Source: an uncultured Bacteroidota bacterium
GTDB taxonomy: Bacteria > Bacteroidota > Bacteroidia > Bacteroidales > GWA2-32-17
Direction of reading: 5' to 3'
DNA: 36,543 bases
Assembly (NCBI GenBank): GCA_903872185.1
Contig: CAIQJL010000207.1
Span: 1 to 36,543 of the forward strand
Under the pieces are notes generated by a model. The model searched no databases, was not told the DNA's origin, and worked only from the letters and a program-made list of their open reading frames with translations. A program made the position numbers and the translations under genes. Shown in pieces: positions 10,989-27,282 of this stretch. The first letter of the stretch is position 1, and each line of letters opens with the position of its first letter.

Positions 10989-11534
10989 CTATTTGTTGAC
11001 TGAATTTAATAACTCGTTTTTACATTTATGACAGAGGCTTGAACTTTTTTGATCAATATCTTCAACATAGGTTCCAGATCTCATTACACAATCTGAAACA
11101 TAGCAATGTATTAGTCCTAAAGTATGTCCTAGTTCATGAATAATTTCTTTACATGAACGTTCTAAAAGAAGATTTTCATCAGAATCAATTCCATATCGCT
11201 CATTACTTAATCTAAAAACAGAAACTACTCCTGTTCTCCCACCTAAATATGCTTGTCCGAATATGTAAGTGAAAATTGGAATAAAGAAATCTACATTAAA
11301 TAACCCGATTGTTTTTGACGAATCTGAAGCAAAATTATTTTCAATTTGTTTTAACAATAAATTAGCATTATACTGACGTCGTGCAGGATCATAATAATCA
11401 CTTAAATCGAGGTGTCCTTCTTTAATTTGGACTTTTATAAATAATTCTCGTTGAATATTTTTTGCAATATTCTGCAGAAAATCATTATCAAAGTAACCGA
11501 AAGAAATTAATGTGATATTTTGCAGATTCATCAA
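10989..11534 (-). CDS. amzA: archaemetzincin family zinc metalloprotease
   Basis: A 181-residue protein with the archaemetzincin signature: HELGHTLGLIHC (H133, E134, H137; third ligand H143), then C149-V-M151 with M151 as the met-turn, and a CHKC pair (C168, C171). The pattern HExxHxxGx3Cx4CxM...CxxC is diagnostic; C144, C149, C168 and C171 would bind the second, structural zinc. Length fits the prokaryotic family. No signal peptide is present, so it is probably a cytoplasmic peptidase. Its substrate is unknown, as for the family in general. It starts 49 bp after the sigma-54 regulator stop and may be co-transcribed with the two-component genes. Two adjacent ATGs (11534 and 11531) make the start ambiguous by one codon. 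Confidence 0.9.
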   Translation of the reverse strand: MMNLQNITLISFGYFDNDFLQNIAKNIQRELFIKVQIKEGHLDLSDYYDPARRQYNANLLLKQIENNFASDSSKTIGLFNVDFFIPIFTYIFGQAYLGGRTGVVSVFRLSNERYGIDSDENLLLERSCKEIIHELGHTLGLIHCYVSDCVMRSGTYVEDIDQKSSSLCHKCKNELLNSVNK

Positions 11535-11583: not shown

Positions 11584-12927
11584 TTATTTTCCGGGAGATT
11601 TTAGGTTGTATTTTTTAATCTTATTGTACAATGTTACTCTGTCAACTTGTAATGCTTTTGCCGATCTTGAAATATTCCAATCATATTTAATTAGAATTTG
11701 AAAAATATGATTTTTTTCCTGTTCATCTAAACTTTCAGCAGAAGAGCTAAGAATGTTTTTTTCTAATGGAAAATCTTTTAAAGTAATTTTCTTCCCATTT
11801 CCAATAACTATTGCCCGTTCTATCATGTTTTCAAGTTCGCGAATATTTCCAGGAAAATCAAATTCTTCTAATCTTTTTAATGCAGATGAATCAATTGGGA
11901 TAATTTGTTTGTTCATTGACATACAGTATTTTTTAATAAAATATTCTGTAAGCAATGGAATATCACCAATTCTTTCTCTCAAAGGTGGTACATGAATATT
12001 AACAACGTTTAATCGATAAAACAGATCTTCACGAAAAGTGCCATCTTCTACCATTTGTTTTAGATTTCGATTTGTTGCACAAATAACCCTAAAATCTGAA
12101 TATATATCTTTATTTCCACCAACACGCATAAATGTTTTTGATTCTAAAACTCGAAGTAACTCAACTTGCATTTTTACTGATACAGTAGCAATTTCATCTA
12201 AAAAGATAGTGCCACTATCGGCCATTTCAAATCTTCCTTTTCTATTATACATTGCACCTGTAAATGCCCCTTTTTCGTGACCAAATAATTCGCTTTCCAA
12301 TAAGCTTTCAGTAAGTGCGCCACAATGTACACTAACTAAAGGAAAATATTTTCTTTGAGAATTTGAATGTATTGCTTTTGCAATAAGTTCTTTTCCAGTT
12401 CCGCTTTCACCTGTAATTATTACTGATGAATTAGATTGAGCAACGCTTTCTACTTTCTGAAGAACTTTTTTCATTGCTTCGCTGTTGCCAATTATATCTT
12501 CTACATTTTCTAATGTTACAACTCTTTCTTTTAGTGTTTCATTCTCATATGATAATGAAATTTGTTTTGAAGCGTTTCTAATGAGATGAGATAAATCATC
12601 TGGATCAAAAGGTTTTGTAACATAGTCAAAAGCACCATCTTTTAGCGCCTGAACAGCTGTGTCAACAGTAGCGAATGCAGTAATAACAATAACTATTGCA
12701 TCTTTTTTTAATGATTTAATTCTTCTAAGCATTTCTAAGCCATCCATGCCTGGCATTTTAATATCTGCTAGAATAATATCAAAATTTTCTGATTCAAGTT
12801 TTGATAGTGCGATTTTTGCATTTTCAGCACATTCAACGCGATAACCATCTTCAATAAACCAGCTAAAAAGAGACTCTCTTACTGATTCTTCATCGTCGAC
12901 GATTAATATTGATATTTTTTTGCTCAT
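11584..12927 (-). CDS. NtrC-family sigma-54-dependent response regulator
   Basis: The receiver domain (1-120) has D11/D12, phospho-acceptor D55 (ADIKMPGMDG), T83 and K105. The AAA+ domain (about 145-375) has Walker A GESGTGKE (173-180), the sigma-54 contact loop GAFTGA (220-225), a Walker B-type FLDEIA and the arginine region of RELENMIERA. A Fis-type helix-turn-helix closes the protein (about 400-443). When phosphorylated it should form a ring, bind enhancer sites and remodel sigma-54 holoenzyme. It overlaps the upstream histidine kinase by 4 bp (ATGA-type coupling), so the two are a cognate pair. The adjacent HybAB/GcvH-like cluster, with its sigma-54-like promoter, is the obvious target (inference). 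Confidence 0.95.
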   Translation of the reverse strand: MSKKISILIVDDEESVRESLFSWFIEDGYRVECAENAKIALSKLESENFDIILADIKMPGMDGLEMLRRIKSLKKDAIVIVITAFATVDTAVQALKDGAFDYVTKPFDPDDLSHLIRNASKQISLSYENETLKERVVTLENVEDIIGNSEAMKKVLQKVESVAQSNSSVIITGESGTGKELIAKAIHSNSQRKYFPLVSVHCGALTESLLESELFGHEKGAFTGAMYNRKGRFEMADSGTIFLDEIATVSVKMQVELLRVLESKTFMRVGGNKDIYSDFRVICATNRNLKQMVEDGTFREDLFYRLNVVNIHVPPLRERIGDIPLLTEYFIKKYCMSMNKQIIPIDSSALKRLEEFDFPGNIRELENMIERAIVIGNGKKITLKDFPLEKNILSSSAESLDEQEKNHIFQILIKYDWNISRSAKALQVDRVTLYNKIKKYNLKSPGK

Positions 12928-14600
12928 TGTTTATTTTCTTTAATTTCATTTTTTAAAGGAAATGTTATTGATATAGTTGTTCCTTTTCCGATTTCCGATT
13001 TTACACCAATTTTTCCATCGTGACTTTGTACTATTCCATGAACAATTGCCAACCCCAAACCTGTACCTCTTGCATTTTGTTTTGTAGAGAAAAATGGTTC
13101 AAAAATATGACTTGCATCTTCTTCTGCTATACCTGATCCGTTATCTATAAAATCAATGGTAATATGCTTTTCGTCTGGATTAAAAGTTCTAAATATAATT
13201 TCACCATTATCTGAAACAGCTTCTGAAGCATTTACTAATACTGCGATGCAAGCCTGTTTAATTTGATTTGGATTACAATATACGATATCAAACTTTGCAG
13301 AAAAATCCGCTATAAATATATGTTTTGCAATTTTCATCGAATGATTCATTAAATCGCTTGTTTCCTGCAAAACATCCTGTATATGTTTGTCTTCGAAAAA
13401 ATTCTGATCTTTTCTCGAAAAATCTAATAATCCTTTAACAATATCTCCGCAACGTTTAGTTTCATTTTCAATCATTTTTAAATGTTTCAATATTGACTCT
13501 TTTTTTACTACATCTAAATCTTGTGTAATTAATTGTTTGTGAACTAATTTGGTGTAAATTAGAATTCCGGATAATGGATTATTAATTTCGTGAGCTACAG
13601 AAAGTGATAATTTTCCAAGTGATGCAATTCTTTCTATATTTATAAGCTCATTCTGAGCTTGTCCTAACTCCTCTGACTTTTTTCGTACTTTATATTCTAA
13701 TTGTTGCGACCAGTTTTGCAACTCGTTGTTAGCAGCCTGTATATTATCAAGCATATCATTAAATGCAACAGATACCATTCTCATATCGTCCAATTGATTC
13801 GGATTTATTTCTAACCTAGTATTTCTATCACCTTTTGAAACAGCATCACTTGCTCTAATTAAATCATTTAACGGATTTTTTATTTTCTTGGTGGTAAAAA
13901 ATATTAAAAACCCAAGTAATAACAACGTGGTAAAAGTAGCTAAAATATAAAAATCTCGTGAAGACTTTTCCATTGTATCATCAAGATCCTTAAGTGGAAT
14001 TTTTATTACCAGAGAGCCAAGAACTTTTTCGCTTTGCGGGTGTGCATGACAAGAACTGGTATAACACGATTTTTCATTGAGAATGGGTGAATTTATCAAT
14101 AAATGCCGATCTATATTATCATTTTGGTTCATTTCGCATTCACTGTTAATTTCAATAATCTTATAGAAATTATCTTTTTCTGGTAATACTGATTTAATAC
14201 TAGAATGACAATCTAAACAATTTGGATTACTATGCCCAACTGTGCCTGTAGAGAAAGAAGAATACACAAGATTTTCTTTATTGTCGTATAAGTTAACTTC
14301 ATCTATTCCCGACATTCGATTTATAACATCGAGCATATTTTGTAATGTGCTTTTGTTATTTTCGAGCATGGATTGATATAAAGCACTTCCAACTAGTAAA
14401 GCAGCATTAGTACCTCGTTGACGAATTATACTTTTCATGTATTCTTCATTAACGGATCTGAAGATTATTCCAAAAGAAACAAAGAGAAAAATGGATAAAA
14501 TTGTAATAATATATACAACCCTTGTATATATCGAAGATCTGAATTTTACATATTTTTTAAGTAATGGACTTTGAAAGATATTTTTCATATTTAAAGCCAT
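12924..14600 (-). CDS. sensor histidine kinase with periplasmic haem c-like motif
   Basis: Transmembrane helices at about 27-48 and 218-237 enclose a periplasmic domain of about 170 residues. That domain carries a canonical CxxCH motif (C128-L-D-C131-H132) and a second looser one (C179-x4-C184-H185), suggesting covalent haem binding. A HAMP linker follows (about 238-292), then a coiled coil, a HisKA dimerisation domain with phospho-acceptor H337 (VAHEINNPLSG), and an HATPase domain with N, G1 (DNGSGIAEED), F (FEPFF) and G2 (GTGLGLAI) boxes. It overlaps the sigma-54 regulator gene by 4 bp. It lies downstream of the redox cluster on the same strand, so it probably senses redox state or a haem ligand and controls that cluster (inference). 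Confidence 0.92.
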   Translation of the reverse strand: MALNMKNIFQSPLLKKYVKFRSSIYTRVVYIITILSIFLFVSFGIIFRSVNEEYMKSIIRQRGTNAALLVGSALYQSMLENNKSTLQNMLDVINRMSGIDEVNLYDNKENLVYSSFSTGTVGHSNPNCLDCHSSIKSVLPEKDNFYKIIEINSECEMNQNDNIDRHLLINSPILNEKSCYTSSCHAHPQSEKVLGSLVIKIPLKDLDDTMEKSSRDFYILATFTTLLLLGFLIFFTTKKIKNPLNDLIRASDAVSKGDRNTRLEINPNQLDDMRMVSVAFNDMLDNIQAANNELQNWSQQLEYKVRKKSEELGQAQNELINIERIASLGKLSLSVAHEINNPLSGILIYTKLVHKQLITQDLDVVKKESILKHLKMIENETKRCGDIVKGLLDFSRKDQNFFEDKHIQDVLQETSDLMNHSMKIAKHIFIADFSAKFDIVYCNPNQIKQACIAVLVNASEAVSDNGEIIFRTFNPDEKHITIDFIDNGSGIAEEDASHIFEPFFSTKQNARGTGLGLAIVHGIVQSHDGKIGVKSEIGKGTTISITFPLKNEIKENKQ

Positions 14601-14813: not shown

Positions 14814-15527
14814 TTAAAATTGTAAAAATCTTTCTTGAAAATCATGCCAAACGGCATTTGATTGTTCAGAAAGCGGATGATCAACCAATTCACCGCCATC
14901 TTGAAGTACGACTAATGAAGGCTCTGTTGAATGTTTTTTAGTTGATTCTGCTATAAAATCTTTAAACCGCTGCATCTCAGTTTTAGCCCAATTTGTTGAG
15001 TCTTCGGCAAGATAGCAAGATTTTGTTTCATCAATCCATTTTGTAGGTTTAATTTTAAATATCCATCCCTTACCATATGGATCATTATTTAACAATTGAG
15101 GATTTTCTTTAAGATTTGTATTCGCTTGCAAAACTGTTCCCGATATCGGCGAAAATATTTGTAAAAGTTTATCGTCTTTTTCTAATTCTACTAACAAATC
15201 ACCTTTGTTGATAATTTCTCCTGATTCTTTTAGATTATTTAATTTCACTTCTCCTGTTGTATGAAGAAGAAAATCATCTAACCCAATAGATGCAGTTCCT
15301 GTTTTTTCCATATGTGCCCATGTATGGTTTTTGCTATAATAAATTCCTTGCGGAATTTTTAACATATCAAAAGAAAAAATATTTAAAACTTTAGTTATTT
15401 TTTGTTTTATTGATCCCTTTTTGTTTAACATTATCCAAAATGGAATTAGTATTATAAAAAAACTAATAATTGCAATATATTCGAATCCTTTAGTATCGAA
15501 TATATTAGAATAATTAAAACCGTCCAT
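14814..15527 (-). CDS. membrane-anchored GcvH-like protein A
   Basis: An N-terminal transmembrane helix (about 15-35) precedes a GcvH/lipoyl-like fold (about 57-155): YYSKNHTW, SIGLDDFLLHTTGEV, GDLLVELEKDDK, FSPISGTVLQAN and DPYGKGWIFKI align without gaps to glycine-cleavage H protein. At the canonical lipoyl-lysine position this protein has D119, with Lys at 120 and 117 instead. A tail of about 75 residues (NW-x-K ... KDFIA ... LQDGG ... VW-x-DFQ) is not part of GcvH and is shared with protein B (17658-18389). It lies 37 bp after the HybB-like gene, in the same direction. Likely a membrane-bound partner of the HybAB-like module rather than a glycine-cleavage component; its biochemical role is unknown. 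The topology of the soluble domain cannot be fixed from sequence alone. Confidence 0.8.
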   Translation of the reverse strand: MDGFNYSNIFDTKGFEYIAIISFFIILIPFWIMLNKKGSIKQKITKVLNIFSFDMLKIPQGIYYSKNHTWAHMEKTGTASIGLDDFLLHTTGEVKLNNLKESGEIINKGDLLVELEKDDKLLQIFSPISGTVLQANTNLKENPQLLNNDPYGKGWIFKIKPTKWIDETKSCYLAEDSTNWAKTEMQRFKDFIAESTKKHSTEPSLVVLQDGGELVDHPLSEQSNAVWHDFQERFLQF

Positions 15528-15564
15528 AATTGTATGTATTTAATATTTAAAACTATTTTGTTTA

Positions 15565-16794
15565 CTATTTTTCTTCTTTAACCCATTCTGGTGAATCTTT
15601 TAATACTGGCATTCTATTAATAACCCATCTAAATATCCATATTTCAGTGAAAATAACTGTAAATGTAACAACGATCTCCATCCACGAAGGAACATAACTA
15701 ACTGCGGCATCCCACCGGAAGCCTATAACAGTTACATTTAATCTATTTAAAATAATTCCTAACATTGTTAAAATAGCAGCAAATTTTACTGTAAAAATGC
15801 TGTTTTTCTTATAGCCAAAAACAAATAACAACATTGGGAGTAAAACAAATCCTAGCATTTCCATTAAGAACCAATATCCCATAGGTGTATCTAATAAATC
15901 CCATCTTTTACCATGAATAAAAACAAGCAATTGTAAAAAGAAATAAGCAAACATTGCTCCAGCACAAATTTTAGCAAGTCCAAGAATTATCCCTTTTTGC
16001 GCCCAGTGATTTTTTTCACTAATCTGTTTGAAAAATACTTTATGACTAATTGAACCTTCAAATATCACCATTGAAAGTCCAGCAAAAATACTTGAAACAA
16101 AAAACAAAATAGGAATAAATTCAGAATACCATAATGGATGTATTTTATCTTTTGCCATAAGATACAAAGCACCTAAACCCGACTGATGTAATGTAGATAA
16201 TGTTATTCCAAAAATTACTGCAGCAATAGTCATTCCTGAAAGAATTTTTCGCGCACGTTTTGCGCCTAACCATTCTGCAATTGCAGGAGAAAACTCTATC
16301 AATTGTGCTATCATATATAGCAAGAAGTGCCATGCAACTAAAAACAAAACAGAACTTGTTCCAAAACTATTTCCAATAATCGGATTAACAACATTCCATG
16401 GTCGTCCTAGATCTAAAAGTAAAGCACCGGCATAAAATACGTAAGCAAGAAAACCATTCAAAACAGTTACCCTTACAATAGAATGATATTTTTGCATATT
16501 TAAAATATAAACCATAAACGTTAGCACATAAGCACCACCGGCAAATGCTACGCCTGTAACAACATCAAATCCTATCCATAGACCCCATGGAACTTCTTGA
16601 GTAAGATTTGTAACAGCACCAATGCCATTTATAAAACGTATTACAATTAACACTATTCCCAATAAAATTACTGGAATAGAAATAATATTAAATGTAGTAA
16701 AGAATTTTCCTTTTGGTTTTAGTTCACTTAGAATAAATTTAAAAGTAGATTTACTTTTATTTTCATTTGATAAACTTATATCTGAATTATTCAT
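15565..16794 (-). CDS. HybB/NrfD-family integral membrane protein
   Basis: Ten predicted transmembrane helices and family hallmarks (VPWGLWIGFDVVTGVAFAGG, LLLDLGRPWN, LHQSGLGALY, HPLWYSEFIP) identify a HybB-like member of the NrfD/PsrC superfamily. Such subunits exchange electrons with menaquinone and pair with a HybA/NrfC-type ferredoxin, here encoded immediately upstream. I chose the ATG at 16794 because it overlaps the HybA-like stop by only 8 bp (ATGAATAA), suiting translational coupling, and gives 409 residues. An upstream in-frame ATG at 16836 would add a Lys-rich 14-residue extension inside the ferredoxin gene. No catalytic hydrogenase or molybdopterin subunit is encoded nearby. Confidence 0.88.
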   Translation of the reverse strand: MNNSDISLSNENKSKSTFKFILSELKPKGKFFTTFNIISIPVILLGIVLIVIRFINGIGAVTNLTQEVPWGLWIGFDVVTGVAFAGGAYVLTFMVYILNMQKYHSIVRVTVLNGFLAYVFYAGALLLDLGRPWNVVNPIIGNSFGTSSVLFLVAWHFLLYMIAQLIEFSPAIAEWLGAKRARKILSGMTIAAVIFGITLSTLHQSGLGALYLMAKDKIHPLWYSEFIPILFFVSSIFAGLSMVIFEGSISHKVFFKQISEKNHWAQKGIILGLAKICAGAMFAYFFLQLLVFIHGKRWDLLDTPMGYWFLMEMLGFVLLPMLLFVFGYKKNSIFTVKFAAILTMLGIILNRLNVTVIGFRWDAAVSYVPSWMEIVVTFTVIFTEIWIFRWVINRMPVLKDSPEWVKEEK

Positions 16795-17653
16795 TTTCTT
16801 CGTTTTTAATATTTTTATTCTTTTTAGTTGCTTCATAAATTCCTAATAATAGGGGAGGCAACAAAACAAAAACAGATGGTACACTAAATAAAAATCCTTT
16901 TGACAATTCAGGATAAGATTCATTTTGAAGTTTAGTGTTAAGTCCTAATTCGTTAAATGGAACAGAAGACAGATACATGAAACCTGTTCCTCCTGCTGTA
17001 TGTTCACCATAAATCTCATCAATGTATGTGTCTTTTCCTTCAGCAATTCTTTTTCTCGCTTCTGCTATTAATTCACGACGAGTTCCAAATTTAATGGCTT
17101 CTGCTGGGCAATTTTCTGCACAAACCGGAATGCCACCTTTTATAATCTTTTCATAACACATTGTACATTTCTGAATTTTCGGATTAGCACTATGGTATTC
17201 AAACTTTGGAACATCAAATGGACATGAAACCATACAATAGCGACATCCCATACATTTATCGCCATTCCAGGTTACCGGACCTTCCTTTGTTTTACACATT
17301 GCTTGTGTAAGACAAGCTGCTGCACATGCAGGTTCATTACAATGCATGCACTGTGTTTTAATAAAGAGTTCACCTTTTGAAGTTTTATAACAATTTAAAA
17401 CTGTACGATGATTTTCATCTGTTTTTCTTATATTACCAGCTTTTAATTCCCCTACAGGAGCAGGCAAACCATTCTTTTCGGCACAAAGAGTTTCGCAAGT
17501 TTGACAACCAGCACATCTTGTCGAATCATAAAGAATTCCATAAAACTCAACATCGCTATTCTTACTCTTTTCAATGCCGAAACTATCTAGAGCTAAAAGT
17601 GTAATACCTGCAACTCCTGCAGTTTTTAAGAAATCTCTTCGATTAATACCCAT
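16787..17653 (-). CDS. HybA-like four-cluster [4Fe-4S] ferredoxin, Tat-exported and membrane-anchored
   Basis: The N-terminus has a twin-arginine signal (NRRDFLK, then a hydrophobic stretch). Four cysteine motifs are complete: C47/50/53/57, C102/105/110/114, C134/137/140/144 and C163/166/178/182, enough for four [4Fe-4S] clusters as in HybA, NrfC, PsrB and DmsB. A C-terminal helix (about 251-270) should anchor it on the periplasmic side, as in HybA. It should pass electrons between the HybB-like quinone subunit and an unidentified periplasmic partner. Its start is 4 bp after the GcvH-like B stop and its end overlaps the HybB-like gene, so they are one operon. Confidence 0.92.
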   Translation of the reverse strand: MGINRRDFLKTAGVAGITLLALDSFGIEKSKNSDVEFYGILYDSTRCAGCQTCETLCAEKNGLPAPVGELKAGNIRKTDENHRTVLNCYKTSKGELFIKTQCMHCNEPACAAACLTQAMCKTKEGPVTWNGDKCMGCRYCMVSCPFDVPKFEYHSANPKIQKCTMCYEKIIKGGIPVCAENCPAEAIKFGTRRELIAEARKRIAEGKDTYIDEIYGEHTAGGTGFMYLSSVPFNELGLNTKLQNESYPELSKGFLFSVPSVFVLLPPLLLGIYEATKKNKNIKNEENE

Positions 17654-17657
17654 AATT

Positions 17658-18389
17658 TTAAATATTAATTAATGTAAAAGTTGAGTCAGAATTTCCAAAG
17701 TCGTATTTAGAAGTATTCATAAATTTTATTTGAAATTCTTCCCATACTTCTGGACCTAAATCTTCCAACACATTATCTCTAAGTATACCGCCATCCTGTA
17801 ATATTGGTTGTAATTCGGCATTGTTCGACTGCGCTATTATTGCAATAAAGTCTTTAAGACGAATAAATTCATTTTTTAACCAGTTCTTATATTTATCTGC
17901 CATAATTAAAAATTGCAAATCTCTTAACCAATTAGAAGGCTCAATAAGATATACCCATCCTTCATTATAAGGAGATGAATTTACCTTTGATGGATTTTTT
18001 ATAAGATCAACATTGTTAGATATAATTTTTCCTGAAATTGGAGCGCAAATAGTTAACTGTTTGCCAAATCTAATTATGGTAAGTATCGATTCACCTTTTT
18101 GGATTATATCACCAATATTTTTCATCTTAACTCTACTTAAAGGTCCAGTAACATGCAGTAAAAATTCATCAAGTCCAATCTTTACTGTGCCATTTTTTTC
18201 CATAAAGGCCCATGTGTGAGTTTTATCGAAAAATATGCCTTTTGGGATAGATATTGAGGCTTCGTTAAATACTCCGGAAAATACTTCAGATTTAACCGTT
18301 ATTCTCGATCTCTTTTTTCTACTATATTGAATTATTCCATCTATAGAGAGACAGATTACAACAAATGCTACCAAAATTAAGATTAACAT
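17658..18389 (-). CDS. membrane-anchored GcvH-like protein B
   Basis: A transmembrane helix at about 2-20 precedes a GcvH-like domain (about 48-146): FFDKTHTW, IGLDEFLLHVTG, GESILTIIRFGK, CAPISGKII and SPYNEGWVYLI. The ungapped alignment to H protein puts G109 where the lipoyl lysine should be, with Lys one residue later (K110), the same one-residue displacement seen in protein A. The C-terminal extension repeats protein A's pattern (NWLKNE ... RLKDFIA ... LQDGG ... VWEEFQ). It is the second gene of the cluster, 12 bp after the small ORF and 4 bp before the HybA-like gene. Function unknown; it is probably structural or electron-transfer-associated in this complex. Confidence 0.8.
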   Translation of the reverse strand: MLILILVAFVVICLSIDGIIQYSRKKRSRITVKSEVFSGVFNEASISIPKGIFFDKTHTWAFMEKNGTVKIGLDEFLLHVTGPLSRVKMKNIGDIIQKGESILTIIRFGKQLTICAPISGKIISNNVDLIKNPSKVNSSPYNEGWVYLIEPSNWLRDLQFLIMADKYKNWLKNEFIRLKDFIAIIAQSNNAELQPILQDGGILRDNVLEDLGPEVWEEFQIKFMNTSKYDFGNSDSTFTLINI

Positions 18390-18520
18390 GGTTTCTAGTT
18401 TTTAAATTTTGTTAATAAACTTCTTGTTTTGTTTCTTGTATTGAATTACTGCATCTAATGTGATAAACATCACTACAAATGCTACTAAGATTAAGATTAA
18501 CATGGTTTTATATTTTTAAT
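18324..18520 (-). repeat. imperfect tandem duplication of a leader and membrane-helix segment
   Basis: The 5' end of the GcvH-like B gene and about 17 bp before its ATG (18324-18406) resemble the 33-codon ORF and its own leader (18438-18520), offset by 114 bp. Both ORFs start MLILILVAFVV and have D at residue 17 and IQY at 20-22; about 15 of the first 22 residues match. Confidence 0.7.
18402..18503 (-). CDS. 33-residue single-helix membrane peptide
   Basis: ATG at 18503 and TAA at 18402 define a 33-codon ORF: a hydrophobic helix beginning MLILILVAFVV and a basic tail ending KKFINKI. It closely resembles the N-terminus of the GcvH-like protein whose ATG lies 12 bp downstream, including the sequence before the start codon, so it arose by tandem duplication. 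It could be a genuine small subunit of the membrane complex, as small single-helix peptides are in some oxidases, or the remnant of a duplication. Many matching codons differ only at synonymous positions (for example ATT/ATC, TTG/TTA, GTT/GTA), which favours maintenance as protein. Expression is unproven. Confidence 0.5.
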   Translation of the reverse strand: MLILILVAFVVMFITLDAVIQYKKQNKKFINKI

Positions 18521-18540
18521 TGTTATTTCAATTACTGGTT

Positions 18541-24381: not shown

Positions 24382-27282
24382 TTATACTTCTACAGTCTTC
24401 ATCTCAAAAACTTCTTTTCTGTAACTTTCCATTGGAGCACATGTGCAAACAAGATTTCTGTCACCAAATGCATCATCTATTCTGCTAATTGTTGGGAAAA
24501 ATTTATTGTCGGCAACCCATTTCAAAGGATAAGCAGCTTTTTCGCGTGTATATTTGTGATTCCATTCATTTGCTAACAAATCACATGCTGGATGTGGTGC
24601 GTTTCTTAAAACGTTGTCGTTTTCGTCAGCTATGCCATCTTTTACTTCAATAATTTCATTGTATATACTCTTCATTGCATCAATAAAACGATCTAATTCC
24701 TGTAATGATTCACTTTCGGTTGGCTCAACCATTAATGTGCCATGAACAGGGAAAGAAAGGGTAGGGGCATGGAAACCATAATCCATTAATCGTTTTGCAA
24801 TGTCAGTTTCAATAATATGAGCCATGTCTTTAAATTTTCGGCAATCTAAAATCATTTCGTGAGCAACAAAACCATTTTCGCCTGTATAAAGAATATCGAA
24901 ATAATCTTTTAAAGAAGCGGCAATATAATTTGCATTTAATATTGCATATTTAGTTGCTTCTGTTAATCCTTTACCGCCCATCATTGTGCAGTAAGCGTGA
25001 GATATGGTAAGTACGCTTGCGCTACCAAATGGAGCAGCTGCAACTGCCTCAACACCTTTTAATCCCCCTGTTTTTACTACAGGGTGTTGTGGTAAGAAGT
25101 CAACCAAATGTTTTGCTACGCAAATAGGACCAACACCTGGACCACCACCACCGTGAGGAATAGCAAAAGTTTTATGAAGATTTAAATGGCAAACATCGGC
25201 ACCAATATGAGCAGGATTTGTTAATCCAACCTGTGCGTTCATGTTCGCACCATCCATGTATACTTGTCCGCCATATTGATGTATAATGTTAGTCATTTCA
25301 ATAATTGCACTTTCAAAAACACCATGGGTTGATGGATAAGTTACCATAAAACCACTTAAATTATCTTTATGCAGTTCAGCTTTTGTTTTTAAATCTTTTA
25401 AATTTATGTTACCAAGCTCATCACAATCAACCAAAACTATTTCCATACCAGCTTGTGCAGCACTTGCAGGATTTGTTCCATGCGCAGATGTAGGAATTAG
25501 CACGATGTTACGGTTTGAGTTTCCACGACTTTCATGATATTTTCTGATTACCATTAAACCTGCATATTCGCCAGCAGCACCAGAATTAGGTTGAAAACTG
25601 ATTGCAGCAAAACCTGTAATTTCGTTTAACATAGCACCTAATTCTTCCATTAATTGGAAGTAACCTTCAGCTTGATTTGCTGGTGCAAATGGATGCATAT
25701 TAGCAAATTCTGGCCAACTTAATGGAAGCATTTCTGAGGCTGCATTTAATTTCATAGTGCAAGAGCCTAAAGAAATCATGCTATGTGTTAATGAGAAGTC
25801 TTTGCGTTCGAGTTTTTTAATGTAACGCATCATTTCAGTTTCTGACTGATAATCTTGAAATATTGATTGTTTTAGAATTTTATCAGAGCGTTTGAAACTG
25901 TCTTTTAAAGAAATTGTTGTTGGGTATTCTTTTATTTCTGTATGTTGTTTTTCAGCTGCTGCTGCAAAAATATTTAGTATTTTGTTTAACCTGCATAAAG
26001 TTACGGTTTCGTCAAGTGAAATACCGATAGTATTTGAATCGATATAGTTAAAGTTAACTTCTTTTTCAATTGCGATTTTCTGAATTTTATCAGAAGCAAT
26101 ATTAGCTGGAAGTTTAACAATTAATGTGTCGAAATAATCTTTATTTTCTTGTATGTAACCAAATTCGGTAATTTTATTACTGATTAAAGTAGCAATAGAA
26201 TTAACGTGGTTTGCAATTCTCTTTAAACCTTCTGGTCCATGATATACTGCATACATTCCTGCCATTGTTGCAAGTAATGCTTGTGCAGTACATATATTAG
26301 ATGTAGCACGTTCACGTTTTATATGTTGTTCTCTGGTTTGTAAAGCCATTCTTAATGCAGTACGACCTTTAGTATCAACAGAAACTCCAATAATTCTTCC
26401 TGGCATTGTGCGTTTAAATGCATCGCGGGTTGCAAAATAAGCAGCATGTGGACCACCAAAACCCATTGGAATACCAAATCTTTGTGTAGAACCGAAAACT
26501 ATATCAGCACCCCATTCTCCTGGAGGAGTAAGTAAAACAAGGCTTAAAATATCAGCAGCAACAGCAACCATTACGCCTGAAGCGTGACATTTTTCGGTAA
26601 ATGATTTATAATCGTAAATAATTCCGTTTGATGCAGGATATTGAATAATTGCACCAAAACATTTTTCGTTTAATGTAAAACTTGCAAAATCTCCAGTTAC
26701 TACTTCTATTCCAAGAGGAGTAGCATGTGTGTTTATAACTGCCAGGGTTTGTGGAAAAACATTATTATCAACAAATAAAACATTTGCACCTGATTTTGCT
26801 TTTTCACGACTACGTGTATTGTGCATCATAATCATTGCTTCTGCACCTGCAGTGGCTTCATCGAGTAATGAAGCATTTGCAATTTCCATTTTTGTAAGTT
26901 CAATTACAACTGTCTGGTAATTTAATAAAGCTTCAAGTCTGCCTTGTGAAATTTCTGCTTGGTAAGGAGTATAAGAAGTATACCAACTTGGATTTTCTAG
27001 AATATTACGAAGTATAACGGATGGTGTTATAGTACCGTAATATCCTTTTCCTATATATGATTTGAAGAGTTTATTTTTAGATGCAGTTTTTCTTAATTTA
27101 TTTAAATATTCAAATTCACTAATTCCATCAGCTAAATTTAAAGGAGAGGTTAATCTGATGTTTGAAGGTACGGTTTTGTCTATTAATTCATTAATAGATT
27201 TTACTCCAATTTTAGCACACATTTTTTCAATTTCGTGATCTCGAGGTCCATTGTGCCTAATAATAAAATTTTCAGTTGCCAT
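24382..27282 (-). CDS. gcvP: glycine dehydrogenase (decarboxylating), P protein of glycine cleavage
   Basis: At 966 residues this is the full-length fused P protein. It decarboxylates glycine with pyridoxal phosphate and passes the aminomethyl group to lipoylated H protein. The PLP lysine is K704 in HLNLHKTFAIPHGGGGPG; the N-terminal half has the usual RHNGP start, ASLLDEATAGAEAM and GSTQRFGIPMGFGGPHAAY; SLGSCTMKLNAASEM and the SAHGTNPASA region open the second half. It stands alone, with no gcvT or true gcvH adjacent and a terminator following. The two GcvH-like proteins at 14.8-18.4 kb lack the canonical lipoyl lysine and are unlikely partners, so a true GcvH should be encoded elsewhere. 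Confidence 0.97.
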   Translation of the reverse strand: MATENFIIRHNGPRDHEIEKMCAKIGVKSINELIDKTVPSNIRLTSPLNLADGISEFEYLNKLRKTASKNKLFKSYIGKGYYGTITPSVILRNILENPSWYTSYTPYQAEISQGRLEALLNYQTVVIELTKMEIANASLLDEATAGAEAMIMMHNTRSREKAKSGANVLFVDNNVFPQTLAVINTHATPLGIEVVTGDFASFTLNEKCFGAIIQYPASNGIIYDYKSFTEKCHASGVMVAVAADILSLVLLTPPGEWGADIVFGSTQRFGIPMGFGGPHAAYFATRDAFKRTMPGRIIGVSVDTKGRTALRMALQTREQHIKRERATSNICTAQALLATMAGMYAVYHGPEGLKRIANHVNSIATLISNKITEFGYIQENKDYFDTLIVKLPANIASDKIQKIAIEKEVNFNYIDSNTIGISLDETVTLCRLNKILNIFAAAAEKQHTEIKEYPTTISLKDSFKRSDKILKQSIFQDYQSETEMMRYIKKLERKDFSLTHSMISLGSCTMKLNAASEMLPLSWPEFANMHPFAPANQAEGYFQLMEELGAMLNEITGFAAISFQPNSGAAGEYAGLMVIRKYHESRGNSNRNIVLIPTSAHGTNPASAAQAGMEIVLVDCDELGNINLKDLKTKAELHKDNLSGFMVTYPSTHGVFESAIIEMTNIIHQYGGQVYMDGANMNAQVGLTNPAHIGADVCHLNLHKTFAIPHGGGGPGVGPICVAKHLVDFLPQHPVVKTGGLKGVEAVAAAPFGSASVLTISHAYCTMMGGKGLTEATKYAILNANYIAASLKDYFDILYTGENGFVAHEMILDCRKFKDMAHIIETDIAKRLMDYGFHAPTLSFPVHGTLMVEPTESESLQELDRFIDAMKSIYNEIIEVKDGIADENDNVLRNAPHPACDLLANEWNHKYTREKAAYPLKWVADNKFFPTISRIDDAFGDRNLVCTCAPMESYRKEVFEMKTVEV

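Follow-up and report, generated by a model that had tools for sequence, protein, structure and literature searches.

Glycine cleavage H-proteins (GcvH; TIGR00527/PF01597) depend on a lipoyl-lysine as the residue that defines their function, and a divergent GcvH-like protein, GcvH-L of Streptococcus pyogenes (PDB 5a35), likewise carries a modified lysine and belongs to a macrodomain/sirtuin operon. Here we describe two GcvH-like proteins, A and B, encoded in a 36,543-nt stretch of DNA (the window, contig C207 of the genome of an uncultured Bacteroidota bacterium), in which this lysine is missing. The nearest published case that we found of a GcvH-like protein recruited into a respiratory gene cluster is LbpA of the Hdr-like sulfur oxidation pathway, for which the portion of the report cited here gives a retained lipoyl-lysine, two conserved cysteine residues (except in some archaeal LbpA) and specific ligases (PMC6067878). 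The two proteins and the codons of their hairpin tips lie as follows, with residues numbered from the start of each open reading frame (ORF):

14814 to 15527, minus strand: protein A, 237 amino acids; Pfam GCV_H 1.5e-26; helix 15-35, GcvH-like domain about 56-165, C-terminal extension with QDGGE
15168 to 15176, minus strand: codons of D118-D119-K120 of A (ORF start at 15527), the modelled turn and the first residue of the return strand
17658 to 18389, minus strand: protein B, 243 amino acids; Pfam GCV_H 2.4e-21; helix 2-29, GcvH-like domain about 47-174, C-terminal extension with QDGG
18060 to 18068, minus strand: codons of F108-G109-K110 of B (ORF start at 18389), the modelled turn and the first residue of the return strand

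Both proteins score far above the gathering cut-off of Pfam GCV_H (93.1 bits for A and 76.3 bits for B against 22.2), but fall under the cut-offs of TIGR00527 (88.9 and 64.7 against 115.85 bits), NF002270 (89.3 and 77.6 against 117) and GcvH_rel_desulf (NF045810; 57.9 and 49.4 bits against 150). They share the fold and Pfam family of GcvH, with 19-34% identity to solved H-proteins other than 5a35, and differ from it by the missing lipoyl-lysine, a membrane helix, a C-terminal extension and a different operon. Their likeness to GcvH-L is that of a divergent GcvH-like fold (Z 12.4). Unlike LbpA, they have neither the lipoyl-lysine nor conserved cysteine (only one alignment column exceeds 30% Cys in A, 43/103, and none does in the 101 readable rows of B), and no ligase-type gene (PF03099) is present on the window's contig. 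With such strong GCV_H matches, A and B could be taken for H-proteins of glycine cleavage, although they lack the very residue on which that function rests; this clade merits a name of its own and should not be taken as evidence for a glycine cleavage system.

The lipoyl-lysine hairpin of proteins A and B

A sequence-only reading of this locus had put D119 of A and G109 of B at the lipoyl-lysine site, with a lysine one position later in each (K120 and K110) and a basic residue two positions before the site (K117 and R107). These residue numbers are correct, and HMMER alignment to E. coli GcvH (sequence of PDB 3a8i_E) agrees with the placement, residue 119 of A and residue 109 of B aligning to lipoyl Lys65 (Met = 1). 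The preceding basic residue is there in the window, but does not hold as a family trait, as this position is mostly Gln among relatives (68/103 A and 73/101 B).

A and B were modelled with AlphaFold2, modelling of the hairpin being a check that the sequence-only reading had itself proposed, from an 81-sequence alignment for A and a 73-sequence alignment for B. The models reached a mean predicted local distance difference test score (pLDDT) of 83.6 and 87.7 respectively, and means of 93 to 98 in the hairpin-bearing blocks. The best solved relatives of the A model are H-proteins (Foldseek, 1onl_A, E 1.7e-12), and the B model superposes on the E. coli H-protein 3a7l with Z 18.6 and 1.2 Å over 128 aligned residues; by these models, A and B have the GcvH fold. 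In A, the predicted strands 111-117 and 120-125 leave a two-residue turn, D118-D119, and in B, strands 101-107 and 110-115 leave the turn F108-G109, the placement of both turns being taken from the secondary-structure strings together with the alignments. K120 and K110 are thus predicted to open the return strand and not to sit at the tip. The distinguishing feature of these proteins would be a turn remodelled with Gly or Asp at its centre, after which the Lys opens the return strand, more than a shift of the lysine as such.

Conservation was examined in 131 stretches of DNA (37 + 80 + 14), in which some genomes occur twice and among which L069 is a canonical gcvH locus and L068 a contig end where B is broken. 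The order sample derives from a search for A and B over 247 genomes of the same order (244 for the regulator described below), a B match being a frame outside A with an E value of 1.6e-36 or better. The named loci are the best 80 of 315 relatives, found by a scan with a single N-terminal peptide pattern of A; they are titled as Bacteroidota metagenome-assembled genomes, many of them Bacteroidales or Prolixibacteraceae, with one Chlorobiota and a few entries labelled 'uncultured bacterium'. The distant loci represent 14 of 17 genomes from other classes of the phylum that match the GcvH part (G339, G495 and G503 were left out), and their proteins were divided at a hidden Markov model score of 90 bits into 18 B-like (over) and 12 A-like (under), four loci having two B-like proteins. 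Column counts were deduplicated, from 109 to 103 A and from 108 to 102 B, of which one B row was unreadable, leaving 101.

The family alignment, which had also been proposed as a check, shows that the lysine has been lost family-wide, with Lys in the lipoyl column in 1/103 A and 0/101 B, against 30/30 among canonical GcvH from that order (the best-matching 30 loci, with matches present in 87 genomes). In full, this column reads G84, D11, N5, S2 and K1 in A and G100 and D1 in B, and the following position (+1) reads K92, R6, N4 and G1 in A and is invariant in B (K101). No distant protein has Lys in the lipoyl column; the +1 residue of the 18 distant B-like proteins is R8, K6, N2, H1 and E1, and 11 of the 12 distant A-like proteins are without any tip lysine.

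That a one-residue indel merely masks the normally placed lysine of an ordinary lipoylated GcvH, as the strong GCV_H matches might suggest, appears very improbable in the light of these results. The hairpin is free of gaps in the HMMER alignments of A and B to both the E. coli and Thermus H-proteins, it is flanked by near-invariant Gly and Pro residues (G109 of A in 100/103 and P127 of A in 103/103; P117 of B in 101/102), the position of the turn is reproduced in both AlphaFold2 models, and the nearby Lys is itself replaced in relatives.

The sequence-only reading had left the choice between a conserved alternative site and loss of lipoylation. Of these, loss is the better supported, and an alternative site finds no support as a general rule, the +1 Lys being replaced in some A and in distant relatives. 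In section 4.2 of a review that describes mutants of a dehydrogenase lipoyl domain, a lysine moved one position toward the N-terminus (D41K/K42A) was not lipoylated, and neither was a second lysine placed beside the target (D41K or A43K), the +1 side being represented there only by A43K, with the proper lysine still present, and in a domain other than GcvH (PMC6270654). Taking together this strict requirement for lysine position in known lipoylation, the Gly/Asp turn and the relatives whose tips are without lysine, A and B are very probably not lipoylated, and the invariant post-turn lysine of B may be read as a binding or structural residue.

We also considered that the +1 lysine (K110 in B, perhaps K120 in A) is an alternative carrier site, lipoylated or otherwise acylated by a shift-tolerant ligase, so that the arm moves electrons or acyl groups for a membrane module. 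This fits the invariance of K110 (101/101 B), the presence of LipA and an LplA-like protein in the genome, and the existence of lipoate carriers beyond the glycine system, of which LbpA is an example in the cited portion of its report (PMC6067878). However, we regard it as improbable, as Arg, Asn or Gly occupies the +1 position in 11/103 A, 12/18 distant B-like proteins have a residue other than Lys there, 11/12 distant A-like proteins have no tip lysine at all, shifted lysines were not lipoylated in the dehydrogenase domain (PMC6270654, as cited), and LbpA itself keeps the canonical lysine in the 95 proteins that its report covers, according to the same portion (PMC6067878). The whereabouts of candidate ligases also speak against it. 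PF03099 matches in the genome occur on contigs C328 and C260 only, away from the window's contig, and a single-sequence blastp search of the ORFs in the 131 stretches with those two proteins, which could miss a divergent ligase, was empty. Modification of B alone, of an unusual kind and at the +1 lysine in this clade, may nevertheless occur.

The genome as a whole can probably make lipoyl proteins, since its canonical gcvH and LipA are encoded on contig C238 and the LplA-like protein on C260; the PF03099 match on C328 is, by the look of its sequence, likely a biotin ligase. A lipoate ligase near the cluster was a candidate that we rejected, with the proviso that the blastp search used single-sequence queries (the LplA-like and biotin-ligase-like proteins) against ORFs of at least 80-90 amino acids, which a divergent ligase could escape. 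LipA was found in the stretches of one genome, met twice (L036 and L102).

Membrane architecture and the conserved gene cluster

Both proteins carry a single helix ahead of the GcvH-like domain. More positive charge was counted behind this helix than before it in 106/106 A and 93/107 B (without deduplication, and leaving out 3 A rows and 1 B row because of length or a missing motif), and by the positive-inside rule this charge bias places the GcvH-like domain in the cytoplasm in A and in most B, as we infer. The C-terminal extension (residues ~175-235 of A and B) lies beyond the Pfam model, has a near-invariant QDGG/QEGG together with W and F, and marks the whole family.

B exists in a long and a short form. 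Frames of 498 amino acids or more make up 61/73 of the B frames in the named loci, and in the three long proteins scanned (L038:10789-12474, L048:10972-12651 and L062:7662-9353) a domain resembling periplasmic binding proteins stands ahead of the membrane helix and the GcvH-like domain. PBP_like_2, with a cut-off of 27, scored 57.4, 26.7 and 25.3 bits in these three, which makes the domain clear in one and borderline, just under the cut-off, in the other two, and long B proteins start with what looks, judged by eye, like a signal peptide. The window's B has only the helix, with GCV_H as its sole Pfam match, and falls within a supported group of seven short forms (100/98). The A (100/97), B (98/95) and canonical GcvH (100/100) groups are supported in the same tree, from which only these four groups were used, as its bootstrap was unsettled and its branches long. 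Upstream of the window's B (region 18313-18527, minus strand) lies an ORF of 33 amino acids with a single helix, which arose when 101 nt from the start of B were duplicated (76% identity), and a similar 32-amino-acid ORF begins 111 bases upstream of B in a genome of the same genus (L034).

A and B belong to a conserved cluster in the order B, Fe-S protein, NrfD, A, histidine kinase, NtrC-type regulator and M54 peptidase, the remaining members of which are, in the window:

16787 to 17653, minus strand: 4Fe-4S protein, HmcB/HybA-like, with a signal of the twin-arginine translocation (Tat) type; Fer4 models in Pfam; NF045715 304.2 bits, cut-off 420
15565 to 16836, minus strand: NrfD/HmcC/HybB-like integral membrane subunit; Pfam NrfD 1.3e-11; NF045714 403.2 bits, cut-off 550
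12924 to 14600, minus strand: histidine kinase; CxxCH + Cx4CH ahead of HAMP, HisKA and HATPase_c domains
11584 to 12927, minus strand: NtrC-type response regulator; Pfam receiver, sigma54 activation and Fis-type helix-turn-helix (HTH) domains
10989 to 11534, minus strand: M54 (archaemetzincin-type) peptidase, last gene of the conserved cluster; Peptidase_M54 2.3e-23

The Fe-S protein and the NrfD-type subunit are homologous to HmcB and HmcC (304 and 403 bits) and also score 228 and 253 bits against HybA and a HybB-type model. In contrast with these systems, all scores lie under the curated cut-offs, two GcvH-like subunits are added, the Fe-S/NrfD pair stands between B and A, and the window's cluster has no hydrogenase or cytochrome gene. 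The Tat signal of the Fe-S protein scores 20.4 bits with TIGR01409 (cut-off 16.7) and 21.3 bits with Pfam TAT_signal, below the 22.7 of that model. The kinase (HisKA + HATPase_c) and the regulator (receiver + sigma54 activation + Fis-type HTH) match the make-up of an NtrC-type two-component pair. CxxCH and Cx4CH are both present in the first 230 residues of the kinase in 70/73 relatives, and one CxxCH is present in 11/11 distant kinases.

The cluster is complete from B to peptidase in 58/80 named loci (counted, as for gene order throughout, without deduplication; three have two kinases), and in the incomplete ones it ends at a contig end or is without a detected gene. It is also complete in 11/14 loci of other classes, at ~21-46% identity (53-59% for the regulator), and the M54 peptidase (10989-11534 (-) in the window) closes it in relatives too. 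These data highlight an operon, kept across Bacteroidota classes, that couples genes of quinone-linked electron transfer with a sensor kinase bearing heme motifs.

The co-occurrence of the two GcvH-like proteins with the other members is not the same. In the order sample, B and the regulator are found in an identical set of 35 genomes, 29 of which have A; a 36th genome (G017) has no more than a broken B, located where a contig ends. In five of the 35 (L062-L066), B is accompanied by the kinase, regulator and peptidase, but the Fe-S, NrfD and A genes are absent. In L061 a 7-heme cytochrome replaces both the Fe-S and the NrfD gene, and A forms a fusion with cytochrome b561. From these arrangements, A goes with a quinone-type membrane module, whichever of the two kinds is present, and B goes with the signalling genes. 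In L061, 19-heme and 4-heme cytochromes are also encoded upstream of B (L061:3796-11690). In a further one of the 35 genomes (L067:6932-10652), B is followed by a frame that fuses the Fe-S protein to the ATPase domain of the kinase, and then by a shortened regulator; this copy looks damaged or misassembled.

Such arrangements bear on the possibility that A and B are purely structural subunits of an Hmc/Hyb-like quinone oxidoreductase, their GcvH-like domains steadying the cytoplasmic face of NrfD while the two-component genes just regulate the operon. The occurrence of NrfD together with A in 79/80 named loci and the fusion of A to cytochrome b561 in L061 are consistent with this. The five genomes that keep B with the signalling and peptidase genes but lack all three of the Fe-S, NrfD and A genes are not, and they indicate that B at least tracks the signalling genes and not NrfD. 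We therefore consider a purely structural role for both proteins unlikely.

A possible role for the GcvH fold without its lysine

Our favoured reading, which we hold to be probable, is that A and B are lipoyl-dead GcvH folds reused as non-catalytic cytoplasmic scaffolds or adaptors. The hairpin of the lipoyl-lysine would have been remade into a tight turn, for the most part (N/D)-G, after which the return strand has a residue that is mostly basic. The GcvH fold would carry nothing and would instead act as a cytoplasmic docking module on a membrane stalk. One helix would tie each protein to the inner membrane, with the GcvH-like domain and the family-specific C-terminal extension in the cytoplasm. 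A would sit beside the quinone-linked electron-transfer module (Fe-S + NrfD or, in one genome, the 7-heme cytochrome + cytochrome b561), and B, as the constant companion of the kinase and the sigma54-type regulator, would connect the outer part, where present, to the histidine kinase with heme motifs, that outer part being, in most relatives, a putative domain resembling a periplasmic binding protein. We put an adaptor role as such at slightly better than even, whereas direct contact of the GcvH-like domain with the kinase is a tentative proposal that we would give somewhat less than an even chance.

A bolder form of the adaptor reading draws on pyruvate dehydrogenase kinase. The lipoyl domain L2 docks on this GHKL-type kinase via its lipoyl-lysine and lipoate, and structures of the pair (PDB 3crk and 1y8n) appeared among the structural matches at Z 5.4 and 5.2. 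The cofactor-stripped lipoyl-type domain might by analogy be a cytoplasmic signal adaptor that docks on the histidine kinase, B and A relaying to it the state of an outer ligand or heme sensor and of the quinone-linked module, which we think rather unlikely as it stands. With about the same reserve, such an adaptor could be the bacterial counterpart of the control of pyruvate dehydrogenase kinase by lipoyl domains, working without lipoate; the docking lipoyl-lysine, however, is missing in A and B.

Several points weigh against the reading of A and B as non-lipoylated adaptors. Plain loss of lipoylation does not account for the invariance of the +1 lysine of B (101/101), a single A protein (L056, tip D-K-K) does have Lys in the lipoyl column, and the absence of lipoylation is itself deduced from sequences and models and from mutants made in another lipoyl domain. 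In addition, the charges of 14/107 B are not biased in the way that a cytoplasmic C-terminus would predict. Coupling to the kinase is suggested by gene context, and co-occurrence may reflect merely membership of one operon; the present data also do not separate an adaptor from a subunit with a purely structural role. Should the adaptor reading nevertheless hold, the lipoyl-domain fold has been reused in signalling, which raises the question of what a GcvH fold without cargo binds. A search of the open-licence PubMed Central literature, covering titles and the starts of abstracts among the matches listed, returned nothing on this operon or on GcvH-like proteins without the lipoyl-lysine.

Neighbouring genes and other observations

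A gcvP gene is present in the window at 24382-27282 (-), ~6 kb from the cluster. A link of the cluster to glycine cleavage was rejected, since within the stretches examined, which reach ~10 kb at most so that a more distant gcvP is possible, the only gcvP genes were those of the window and of one genome of the same genus (G168; L034 and L100), and the canonical gcvH of the window's genome lies on another contig.

With a sigma54 -24/-12 pattern of our own, the 500 bases before B gave a match in 7/70 stretches, against 1.9 in mononucleotide shuffles, and the 500 bases before the kinase in 7/76 stretches, against 4.45 in shuffles, both of which are weak signals; the pattern had no match in the window. 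A multiheme cytochrome was rejected as a constant partner of the cluster, an ORF with at least three CxxCH motifs being present in only 3/37, 4/80 and 2/14 stretches. A small cytochrome with four heme motifs, of 176-179 amino acids, is encoded near the cluster in a few genomes (L186:9571-10110, L191:5526-6056, L061:6649-7179 and L163:5169-5702).

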